NCBI GenBank assembly: GCA_030613505.1
Contig: JAUWLW010000009.1
Span: 1 to 64,000 of the forward strand
Length of the DNA: 64,000 nucleotides
Reading direction: 5' to 3'
From: Candidatus Zixiibacteriota bacterium
Lineage (GTDB): Bacteria > RBG-13-66-14 > B26-G2 > WVWN01
A program made the translations under genes and the position numbers. Under the pieces are notes generated by a model. The model was not told where the DNA came from. It searched no databases and saw only the letters and a list, made by a program, of their open reading frames with translations. The first letter of the stretch is position 1. Every line of letters begins with the position of its first letter. Below are positions 15,653-62,070 of this stretch, piece after piece.

Positions 15653-15738
<86 letters not shown>

Positions 15739-16040: not shown

Positions 16041-16129
16041 GGAGAGGTGTCCGAGCGGCTTAAGGAGCACGCCTGGAGAGCGTGTGGGCCCGTTGGGCCT
16101 CGTGGGTTCGAATCCCACCCTCTCCGCCA
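16041..16129 (+). tRNA. tRNA-Ser (anticodon GGA)
   Basis: Acceptor GGAGAGG / CCTCTCC, anticodon GGA in the CCTGGAGAGCG loop, long variable arm and T arm GTGGG-TTCGAAT-CCCAC. Discriminator G at 16126 is followed by an encoded CCA (16127-16129), unlike the CGA gene upstream. Reads UCC and UCU. Confidence 0.96.
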
Positions 16130-26117: not shown

Positions 26118-26147
26118 TTGATATGGGACGCTTAAATGTTTTATAAT
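26118..26147 (+). promoter_or_regulatory. Promoter close to the queH start codon
   Basis: TTGATA (26118-26123) and TATAAT (26142-26147), 18-base spacer. Transcription would begin around 26154, six bases before the ATG at 26160, so the message is nearly leaderless. This also argues against the in-frame ATG at 26136 as the start. Confidence 0.65.
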
Positions 26148-26159
26148 AGATCTTTTAGT

Positions 26160-26726
26160 ATGAAGATACTCGTACATGCCTGCTGCGGGCCTTGTTTAGT
26201 GGCGCCGGCACGCGCGTTAGCGGCGGAAGGGCACGAAATACTGGCATATTGGTACAACCCGAACGTCCAGCCGTACCGCGAGAACCGCAAAAGGCTCGCC
26301 GCCTTCAGGGAAGCCGCTAACCGCGACGGTTGGCCCGCCGACGTCGACGACCGCTACGACGTGGATTTTTTCCTGAAGGAGGTTGCCGTTCGCCGGGAAG
26401 GCCGTTGCCCGCGTTGCTACTACGAGCGGCTCTCGCGGGCCGCGGCGCGGGCGGCGGCGAACGGCTGCGACGCCTTCACGACGACGTTACTGATATCACG
26501 TCACCAAGACCGTGAGGCCCTGCTGGAGGCGGGAGCGCGGGCGGGCGCAGCAGCCGGCGTCGCGTTTATGGGGAGCGACTTCAGGCCTTTGGACGGCGAG
26601 AGCCACCGCCTCGCCCGCGAGATGGGCCTTTACATCCAGGGTTACTGCGGCTGCATATATAGCGAGGAGGAACGTTACCGAAAGCGGGAGGACGTTGACT
26701 CGAGCGAAGTTCGATCTGGCGGTTAA
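26160..26726 (+). CDS. queH: Epoxyqueuosine reductase QueH
   Basis: A 188-residue DUF208/QueH protein that performs the last step of queuosine synthesis, reducing epoxyqueuosine in tRNA, using Fe-S chemistry instead of cobalamin. The cysteine framework is present: HACCGPC (residues 6-12), RCPRCYY, and YCGCIYS at the C-terminus, plus YNPNVQPY. The ATG at 26160 is favoured because the promoter's predicted start site is just upstream. The next gene overlaps its end by about 32 bases, giving a queH-metH-type operon. A QueG-like protein is encoded elsewhere in the window (61399-62070). Confidence 0.92.
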   Translation: MKILVHACCGPCLVAPARALAAEGHEILAYWYNPNVQPYRENRKRLAAFREAANRDGWPADVDDRYDVDFFLKEVAVRREGRCPRCYYERLSRAAARAAANGCDAFTTTLLISRHQDREALLEAGARAGAAAGVAFMGSDFRPLDGESHRLAREMGLYIQGYCGCIYSEEERYRKREDVDSSEVRSGG

Positions 26727-59145: not shown

Positions 59146-60132
59146 CTACAAATTAATGAATCCGCCGTACGTGAGCGTGATGTACATACCCTGCGGCGAG
59201 TTGTTGCCCATTACCGGGTACATAAACTTCAAACCGAGGGCGCTGCTTTCGTCGAGCTGATATTTCGGGTAAAGGCCCAGGTATAGGGTCGAGTGGTCTA
59301 CGCCTTCGGGTTTGGGCTCCGTTTCCGGCCAGTTATCCGGGTACGCGAGATCGTCCTTCATCGACATCTCGTAACCGATGGGCACGTAGATCTGGAAAGC
59401 CTGGTCGCGGCTAACGGCAATACCCGGCTCGGCGTGCAGATATATCATCAAGCCCGGCGTGACGTCGTAGTCTCTCCAATCGAGTTCGGGAAAGGGTCCT
59501 GGTTTGACTATTACGTAGTCTGCAACAGTTTTCTTCATGCGGTAGCGGAAGCCGGCCTGGCCGCTCATTACGAACTTCGTCGATTCGCCGTACTTGCCGG
59601 CGACGAGCGCCACGTCGATATCCATTTGGTCGTCGCCCAGGTTGGGTTTTTCGTCCTTGTAGTCTACTTTGCCGACCGGAATCTTAACGGCTAAGCGGGG
59701 CCCGAGGTAGAAGTCGGTGGCCGTTTCCCAAAGGCCGCGGGCTTTGACCCAGATGTCGCCTAGTCCCATGGCGTTTACGGTTTTCTCCTCGGTTGTACCG
59801 GGTTTCCAAGTCTCGCTCGGCCGTAGAATCTGGAGCGTGACGTCCGCCATGATGTGCTCGTTAAACGCGTAGCCGACGTCGAGCGGGACGAGGAGTGCGT
59901 TGGGTTTGCTCTTCCAATCGTCGCTATCGCCGGCGTCGTCGAAGCCTTTACTAGCCGCCCAGTACCCGGCGCCGGCGTTAATGTGGAGCGTTTCGGGTAC
60001 GATGGGCAGGCCGCCCGGGTCAATGGAGATGAGGCCGTCGTACGGTGCGTATTCCGGCATGGTGTAGCCGAAGGCCGCGCCCACGGCTATAAAGGGTACG
60101 GCTGACAGTAGAACTAAGCGCGATAATTTCAT
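59146..60132 (-). CDS. Outer-membrane beta-barrel protein
   Basis: 328 residues. A signal peptide (SRLVLLSAVPFIAVGAAFG) is followed by mostly beta structure: HINAGAGYWAASK, LVPLDVGYAFNEHIMADVTLQI, FYLGPRLAVKIPVGKVDY and a C-terminal strand ending in FINL. It resembles phenol-degradation MetA-type and transporter-like barrels. ATG 60132 has AAGGAGG six bases upstream; longer ORF starts are not favoured. Its substrate is unknown. Confidence 0.72.
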   Translation of the reverse strand: MKLSRLVLLSAVPFIAVGAAFGYTMPEYAPYDGLISIDPGGLPIVPETLHINAGAGYWAASKGFDDAGDSDDWKSKPNALLVPLDVGYAFNEHIMADVTLQILRPSETWKPGTTEEKTVNAMGLGDIWVKARGLWETATDFYLGPRLAVKIPVGKVDYKDEKPNLGDDQMDIDVALVAGKYGESTKFVMSGQAGFRYRMKKTVADYVIVKPGPFPELDWRDYDVTPGLMIYLHAEPGIAVSRDQAFQIYVPIGYEMSMKDDLAYPDNWPETEPKPEGVDHSTLYLGLYPKYQLDESSALGLKFMYPVMGNNSPQGMYITLTYGGFINL

Positions 60133-60250
60133 GCTTTCCTCCTTCTCGTTTGAGGTTAGCTTTCTTACGGACATATTATGAAATCGATTGCTTAAAAGCA
60201 AGTTTTTTTTAGGTTAAAATCCGCGGCGGCGTGCGGCCCGCCGAAAAGCC

Positions 60251-60279
60251 TTGACATGGAAGCTATACGTTATTAGAAT
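60251..60279 (+). promoter_or_regulatory. Promoter of the BMP lipoprotein leader
   Basis: TTGACA (60251-60256) and TAGAAT (60274-60279), spacer 17. It matches 6/6 and 5/6. Predicted start near 60286. Confidence 0.75.
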
Positions 60280-60285
60280 TTAAGG

Positions 60286-60403
60286 CGCTGGCTGGCGTGC
60301 GCGGCTGTTAATAATTAGCGAGTTTCGGTTGTTTCAAGCGAACGCAAACGGTAAAAAACGACCGTCCTACGACGGGTTTTTTTTTCGCGGGTAGTATCCG
60401 AAC
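60286..60403 (+). promoter_or_regulatory. Leader with mutually exclusive antiterminator and terminator
   Basis: ACGGT (60348-60352) can pair with ACCGT (60361-60365) across an A-rich loop AAAAAACG. The second arm is also the 5' part of the terminator CCGTC-CTAC-GACGG (60362-60375), which is followed by nine T (60377-60385). Only one hairpin can form. The GTG start at 60404 lies 18 bases after the T-run. No known riboswitch class was recognised. Confidence 0.65.
60362..60385 (+). terminator. Intrinsic terminator before the BMP gene
   Basis: CCGTC-CTAC-GACGG, then G and nine T. It is upstream of, not after, a gene in the same direction, so it is probably an attenuator. Confidence 0.75.
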
Positions 60404-61387
60404 GTGTCGACAATAACGAAGGTAATTTTCGTCTCGTTCGCGGCTGCGGCCTTGATCGGTTGCGGCCGCGGCGCGCGCGACGCGGAGTGCTTCGACGTAG
60501 CGGTAGTGATGGACGCCGGCGGCTTGGGGGATAAGGGAAAAAACGACATGGTCTGGCGGGGGTGCCAGCGTTTCGCGGAGGAGAGCGGCGTCGCGGCCAG
60601 GGTTGGTAGCTACGAACCCGTTACGGAGGCCGAAGGTCGCGCGTACCTACGCGAAGCGAGCGATGGCGGCGCCGACGTAATAATCGTCGCGGCCCCGATA
60701 TGGGAGGATTACGTCCACGGCTTGGCCCGAGAATACCCCCGTATAGTTTACGTCGTCGTGGACGGCGAGAGAGGCGCGTCCAACGTTAAGTCGTTGAGCT
60801 TTCCGGCCGCCGACGCCGGGTACTTGATGGGGGTGGCCGCCGCGGCCGCGGTCCCGGCGGGGAATTACGCGTTCCTGGGGGGTCGTAAAGACGCCTCCAC
60901 CGAGAAACTTGCCGGCGGGTACCGCAAGGGGATTATGTCCGAGAACCCGTCGTCGGCGGTAGCCGTGGTTTATGCCGGCGACGATTTCGCCGCCCCGGTC
61001 GCACGCGGTCGGGTTCGCGCCCTCGCGGGGGAGCTTTTCGACGACGGCGCCGCGGTGATTTTCGCCGCCGCGGGCGTGGCCAACGCCGACGTCGCCGCTG
61101 TCGCCAAAGAAAGGGATAAACTATTAATCGGTTACGAGTCGAATCAGAATTACCTCGAGCCGGGATACGTCATAACGTCGTTGAATATCAGGTGGGATAA
61201 CGTCGTATTCGAGGAGCTGCGCAAAACCGCGTCCGGCGATTTCAAAGGGGGCGAGCGCGAGATCAGCATCGCGAGCGAGCACATCTCTTATCCCATCGAC
61301 GACAACAACCGCTCGTTAATCCCGGCCGAAGCGGTGCGAAAAATAGAGGCCGCGCGCCAGCGGCTGGCGGCCGGGACGGTTGAGTAG
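60404..61387 (+). CDS. BMP/Med-family substrate-binding lipoprotein
   Basis: 327 residues. Lipobox ALIGC with Cys20; then the BMP family arrangement of a type-I periplasmic-binding fold: DVAVVMDAGGLGDKG (residues 30-44), PRIVYVVVDGE, GNYAFLGGRK, LIGYESNQNY and EHISYPIDDNN. PnrA-type relatives bind purine nucleosides and feed an ABC importer. No permease or ATPase genes are adjacent. An SD is not apparent. The start is GTG 60404. The QueG-like gene follows 11 bases after its stop. Confidence 0.88.
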   Translation: MSTITKVIFVSFAAAALIGCGRGARDAECFDVAVVMDAGGLGDKGKNDMVWRGCQRFAEESGVAARVGSYEPVTEAEGRAYLREASDGGADVIIVAAPIWEDYVHGLAREYPRIVYVVVDGERGASNVKSLSFPAADAGYLMGVAAAAAVPAGNYAFLGGRKDASTEKLAGGYRKGIMSENPSSAVAVVYAGDDFAAPVARGRVRALAGELFDDGAAVIFAAAGVANADVAAVAKERDKLLIGYESNQNYLEPGYVITSLNIRWDNVVFEELRKTASGDFKGGEREISIASEHISYPIDDNNRSLIPAEAVRKIEAARQRLAAGTVE

Positions 61388-61398
61388 AGCGGTTTCCC

Positions 61399-62070
61399 GT
61401 GGCGGCGACGAAAGGCGTGGATATAGCCGGGTCCGAGGTGGAAGGGGTAGCCCGGGACGGCGGCGCGGCTCTCGTCGGCGTCGCTGCGGTAGGCGGCGGC
61501 GTACCCGGCGAGTTCGCCGGTTTCCCGCGGGCCGTTGTGGCGGCGGTGCCTTTATCGCGGGGCGTGGTAGCGACGTGCGTAACGGCGCCGACGCGTATCT
61601 ATGCGTATCATTATCGCGTCGTGAACGCCGTCCTCGACAACGTCGCGTGCCGGCTGGCGTCGTTTTTGGAAAGCAGCGGTTATGCGACGTTGGCCGTTCC
61701 GGCGTCGCAAATTGTCGACAGGGACCGCGTCGTCGGCTCGGTAAGCCATCCCCGCCTGGCGCAGCTCGCCGGGCTTGGATTTATAGGCCGCCACAACTTG
61801 CTCGTTACGCCGCGGTTCGGCGCCGCGGTGCGGCTGGTAAGCGTTTTCACGAACGCGCCGCTCGAAGCGGACGAACCGGCCGCGGGCGGTTGCGGCGATT
61901 GCGACGCGTGCCGGCTCGCGTGCCCGGCGGGCGCCGTAGGCGAGGGGCCGGAGCTTTGGGACCGCGCCCGTTGCCTCGAGAAGTTGCGCGATTTTAAAAA
62001 GCGGATTACGAACCAGTACATATGCGGCGTATGCGTCCGCGTGTGCACCGGCGCCGGGGCCATTTTTTGA
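61399..62070 (+). CDS. QueG-like 4Fe-4S protein
   Basis: 223 residues related to the C-terminal half of epoxyqueuosine reductase QueG (COG1600). GLGFIGRHNLLV resembles QueG GLGWIGKNT; CGDCDACRLACP and YICGVCVRVC supply two [4Fe-4S] clusters. It is shorter than QueG and lacks the N-terminal domain, so activity on queuosine is unproved. It follows the BMP lipoprotein by 11 bases, suggesting a link between nucleoside binding and this redox protein. Start GTG 61399. Confidence 0.8.
   Translation: MAATKGVDIAGSEVEGVARDGGAALVGVAAVGGGVPGEFAGFPRAVVAAVPLSRGVVATCVTAPTRIYAYHYRVVNAVLDNVACRLASFLESSGYATLAVPASQIVDRDRVVGSVSHPRLAQLAGLGFIGRHNLLVTPRFGAAVRLVSVFTNAPLEADEPAAGGCGDCDACRLACPAGAVGEGPELWDRARCLEKLRDFKKRITNQYICGVCVRVCTGAGAIF

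Follow-up and report, generated by a model that had tools for sequence, protein, structure and literature searches.

T-box and leader-peptide attenuators carry a terminator upstream of the operon, and the T-box is included in Rfam. The locus considered here, the leader of an operon that begins with a BMP/PnrA-like lipoprotein gene, has this terminator in common with them, whereas it yields no T-box match, and neither a conserved leader peptide nor repeated codons were seen in the four leaders compared. With the preQ1 and purine riboswitches of Rfam, the likeness lies in a terminator within the leader and in genes that are loosely linked to nucleosides. In contrast to these riboswitches, the BMP leader has no Rfam match, no conserved aptamer and no conserved antiterminator. 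Finally, 3′-end mapping in bacteria has revealed 5′ leaders with premature termination, that is, attenuators using an intrinsic terminator (PMC7815308, PMC8297930). In the cases considered from these two studies, a promoter, an untranslated leader and an intrinsic terminator precede the start codon, as is seen here. However, when set against the leaders considered from these studies, the BMP leader is known from sequence alone, and its body changes fast between stable ends. An attenuator-like leader is a known kind of element, and the present one is ordinary apart from these conserved ends around a fast-changing body.

Promoter and terminator of the BMP operon

The window, which designates the whole stretch of 64,000 nucleotides that was analysed, comes from a 2.86-Mb, 93% complete MAG of the uncultured lineage Candidatus Coatesbacteria. 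This genome (G000) was compared with three others of the same genus (G001 to G003); ranked from highest to lowest, the identities of their BMP proteins to that of the window are 85, 72 and 67%. Completeness of the genomes of the genus ranges from 78 to 97%. Two 86-nt tRNA genes lie close together in the window, at 15653-15738 and 16041-16126 on the + strand. The features around the BMP operon are as follows:

60155..60211, - strand, divergent promoter with an A8 tract and TTGCTT-N17-TAATAT, conserved in the genus by sequence comparison
60251..60279, + strand, sigma-70-type promoter TTGACA-N17-TAGAAT, 11/12 consensus, conserved in 4/4 congeners
60287..60361, + strand, leader body, start estimated, 75 nt in the window, unconserved save for a weak 3′ stretch
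60348..60365, + strand, possible competing hairpin ACGGT (60348-60352)/ACCGT (60361-60365), read from the sequence and folding in the truncated leader
60362..60385, + strand, intrinsic terminator with stem CCGTC/GACGG, loop CTAC, a G and T9, 100% of its pairs kept in 4 species
60404..61387, + strand, BMP/PnrA-like lipoprotein gene (PF02608), single copy in the genome, GTG start
61399..62070, + strand, second gene, short QueG-like double 4Fe-4S protein of 223 aa
62074..63549, + strand, third gene, 3 nt past the second, exopolysaccharide (EPS) polyprenyl glycosylphosphotransferase

The strong promoter pointed out in the earlier note is indeed present. Its -35 box TTGACA (60251-60256) and its -10 box TAGAAT (60274-60279) are separated by a 17-nt spacer, and the site is the top promoter-like site within the 50-64 kb part of the window. 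The sequence TTGACA-N17-TA(G/A)AAT precedes the BMP operon in the four genomes of the genus. More generally, the pattern TTGACA-N16-18-TARAAT has 99 matches in these genomes versus 2 in a reversed control, which indicates that it is real in the genus. From the position of the -10 box, transcription would start at about 60287, 7 nt downstream. Comparison by eye revealed no conserved second promoter between the terminator and the BMP gene.

The terminator with nine T placed 18 nt before the GTG, also described in that note, is likewise found. The hairpin CCGTC-CTAC-GACGG (60362-60375) has a 5-bp stem of -7.1 kcal/mol and is followed by a G and by a perfect U-run (T9, 60377-60385), the last T being 18 nt from the GTG at 60404. 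In all four species, CCGTC-N4-GRCGG with 7-9 T stands directly before the BMP gene, at ~18-20 nt from the operon start in two relatives, and hairpin energies range from -7.1 to -8.5 kcal/mol. On alignment of the stem, 20/20 pair cells are kept, with a single A-to-G change turning U-A into U-G, and the loop and the bases past the stem vary between species. The neighbouring gene on the upstream side is divergent, so that a role as terminator of a preceding gene was ruled out.

Gene order is conserved in the genus, with the divergent outer-membrane-like gene (59146-60132), the BMP gene, the QueG-like gene and the EPS transferase gene. The A8 tract of the divergent promoter that serves the outer-membrane-like gene resembles an UP element and is kept in the four species. 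No clear Shine-Dalgarno sequence was seen before the BMP start. In G002 (C1 near 2084300), the stretch from the terminator to the signal peptide of BMP contains no ATG, GTG or TTG; the nearest in-frame BMP start is then found ahead of the terminator, unless the assembly is in error. The TGT frame of the same genome also contains two TGA.

How unusual this layout is was assessed with the 99 consensus promoters of the four genomes, a few of which are too near contig ends to be judged, and with a separate 669-kb scan. A terminator between promoter and gene occurs only at the four BMP loci among the 99 promoters, and the site of the window is the only such case with a promoter score of at least 10/12 in the scan. 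Two apparent further leader terminators, L084 and L135, were discarded since both fall within coding sequence, that of a 496-aa gene with its ATG 10 nt past the -10 box. Other strong promoters are devoid of leader terminators, which rules out a general habit of the genome. The layout, rare elsewhere and kept at BMP, is therefore a specific, maintained property of the BMP operon. Beyond the genus, the next relative of the same order (L006/L011) carries the genes but not the promoter-terminator layout. As a side observation, many genes of the genus begin only ~6-27 nt past the -10 box (for instance at L057, L084 and L135), suggesting that leaderless or nearly leaderless mRNAs are frequent.

Conservation of both promoter and terminator in 4/4 species, together with the uniqueness of the terminator-before-gene arrangement among the 99 promoters, makes a conserved premature-termination leader before the BMP operon a well-supported prediction. 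The attenuator layout proposed in the earlier note is thereby recovered before the same operon in each of the four species.

Leader body and proposed antiterminator

Between these two conserved ends, the leader bodies measure 75, 169, 192 and 169 nt in the four species. Pairwise similarity reaches z 6-14 for the promoters and z 5-11 for the terminators, and is about 0 for the leader bodies in most pairs. The sole clear exception to these unalignable bodies is a short 3′ stretch resembling GGTTTAAGCGAACG, which the leaders of G000 and G001 have in common; in the window, this weak stretch reads CGGTTGTTTCAAGCGAACG (~60326-60344). In the closest pair, G000 and G003, the leaders of other promoters give z 3-40 versus 1.5 for the BMP leader body, which is thus changeable even at this distance; in more distant pairs, the leaders of other promoters also drop near z 0. 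The total folding energy of the leader of the window is not unusual when compared with shuffled sequences (z +0.7 to +1.1), and whole-leader folding in G003 is weakly stronger than in shuffles (z -1.5). Rfam searches, run with the gathering thresholds and again with relaxed ones, gave no credible match for the leader, in keeping with the earlier remark that no known riboswitch could be recognised.

An antiterminator had also been proposed, with an ACCGT arm overlapping the 5′ arm of the terminator. The overlap is confirmed. However, this 5-bp pairing is located upstream of the terminator and not after it, and it is complete in the window only, being broken in the three relatives. Comparison of homologous leaders, in which a lack of covarying alternative pairs had been named as the outcome opposing the proposal, shows that 15/20 aligned cells (75%) can pair versus 72.5% in shuffles, with one compensatory cell, four sequences giving this comparison low power. 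A local helix of at least 5 bp onto the terminator 5′ arm is found in the window and in 0/3 relatives, and arises in 4% of shuffles of the window leader. When pairing of the terminator arm with the whole leader is considered, the value (0.61) is not in excess of that of shuffled leaders (0.55), and in the full ensemble pairing of the arm (0.49-0.74) is like that with shuffled leaders (0.55-0.67). A conserved, mutually exclusive antiterminator, as in attenuators of the classical form, was consequently rejected, on the grounds that the helix breaks in three species and that pairing stays at the level of shuffles. Each leader could nevertheless use a species-specific alternative pairing.

In 4/4 leaders, an open reading frame that shares the frame of BMP starts ahead of the terminator. 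In G000, it opens with TTG and spans 21 codons, its TAG stop lying 9 nt upstream of the GTG. In G003, G001 and G002, frames starting with GTG, ATG and ATG, respectively, read into BMP.

Possible signals and modes of control

The nature of the first two genes had led to the proposal of a nucleoside or a queuosine-related compound as ligand. The QueG-like protein scores 69.5 bits with the QueG model, far below the cut-off of 200, and shows a resemblance to reductive dehalogenases as well. QueA and TGT occur in the genus with scores above their cut-offs, but QueG does not; the last queuosine step is covered by QueH, so that the QueG-like gene would not be needed for queuosine. The gene of QueH, an alternative epoxyqueuosine reductase, is within the same 64,000-nt window (26136-26726, + strand). 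On the nucleoside side, the PF02653 permeases of G000 are only LivH/LivM-like and stand beside a Liv-type binding protein; a nucleoside-type ABC permease partner for the single BMP protein was not found in these 78-97% complete genomes. This protein, the only BMP-type binding protein of the genus, may be an orphan sensor, or work with another transporter. Taken together, the score of the QueG-like protein, the presence of QueH and the permease results mean that neither gene is a firm indication of a nucleoside or queuosine signal, and the ligand proposal is weakened.

We consider that the conserved layout most plausibly corresponds to an attenuator, i.e. a premature-termination leader of the BMP-QueG-like-EPS transferase operon (probability about 0.6). 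In such a mechanism, RNA polymerase would start at the sigma-70 promoter and make a leader of ~100 nt (~190-215 nt in the relatives). At the short hairpin and U-run, it would either stop or continue into the operon. Termination would be partial, a fraction of the rounds ending at the U-run with release of a 100-215-nt RNA, and read-through in the remaining rounds would set the expression of the operon. The attenuator is probably leaky, and read-through may be regulated.

What would be sensed may be approached through the properties of the leader body. Its mostly unalignable character argues against a riboswitch with a conserved aptamer, and sensing by such an aptamer is probably not at work. 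A riboswitch sensing a nucleoside, preQ1 or queuosine would agree with the layout and with the competing 5-bp helix of the window's own leader, yet neither aptamer nor antiterminator is conserved in the four leaders, Rfam is negative, QueH makes the QueG-like gene dispensable for queuosine and the nucleoside-type permease partner is missing from the search results; this idea, put forward in the earlier note, is now most improbable. Likelier candidates for reading the signal would be a protein, leader translation, or the polymerase itself through its general state. The same lack of conservation speaks against a small-RNA gene, in which the unit would mainly produce a trans-acting RNA of 100-215 nt, the operon being expressed by read-through. 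Such a function would account for a full transcription unit with a strong promoter and a terminator. However, the body varies in length and sequence within the genus, Rfam gives nothing here either, and the unit is always found at the same operon with no second copy in its own genome, which renders this alternative unlikely.

There are left a factor acting on the terminator or on the polymerase, translation of the leader and a passive brake. In the last case, a weak terminator would give a constant low read-through and sense nothing. The short 5-bp stem with its perfect U-run (-7.1 to -8.5 kcal/mol), as well as the absence of a conserved sensing part, would fit, and a constant unregulated leak is compatible with the same sequence data. 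A weaker promoter would, however, be a simpler solution, and selection has kept strong promoter and terminator together in four species, so that a mere brake appears rather improbable. Coupling to translation may also be imagined, a ribosome translating the BMP-frame leader ORF through the terminator and thereby opening the hairpin. The occurrence of such frames before the terminator in 4/4 leaders and a BMP start lacking a clear Shine-Dalgarno would agree with it, but neither peptide nor Shine-Dalgarno is conserved and GC-rich frames are often left open by chance; we regard this mechanism as very unlikely. Tentatively, a regulated attenuator may be proposed, in which both ends are under selection, the body is free to change and the signal is read otherwise than through a conserved fold of the RNA, for instance by a protein targeting the terminator or by leader translation.

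A literature search for Coatesbacteria or for BMP with a riboswitch returned nothing, and no described RNA regulation was found in it for the phylum. A new riboswitch for nucleosides or queuosine finds no support in the comparison within the genus, which corrects that earlier idea. In an uncultured phylum, the BMP leader provides a conserved and concrete candidate for regulated termination of transcription.
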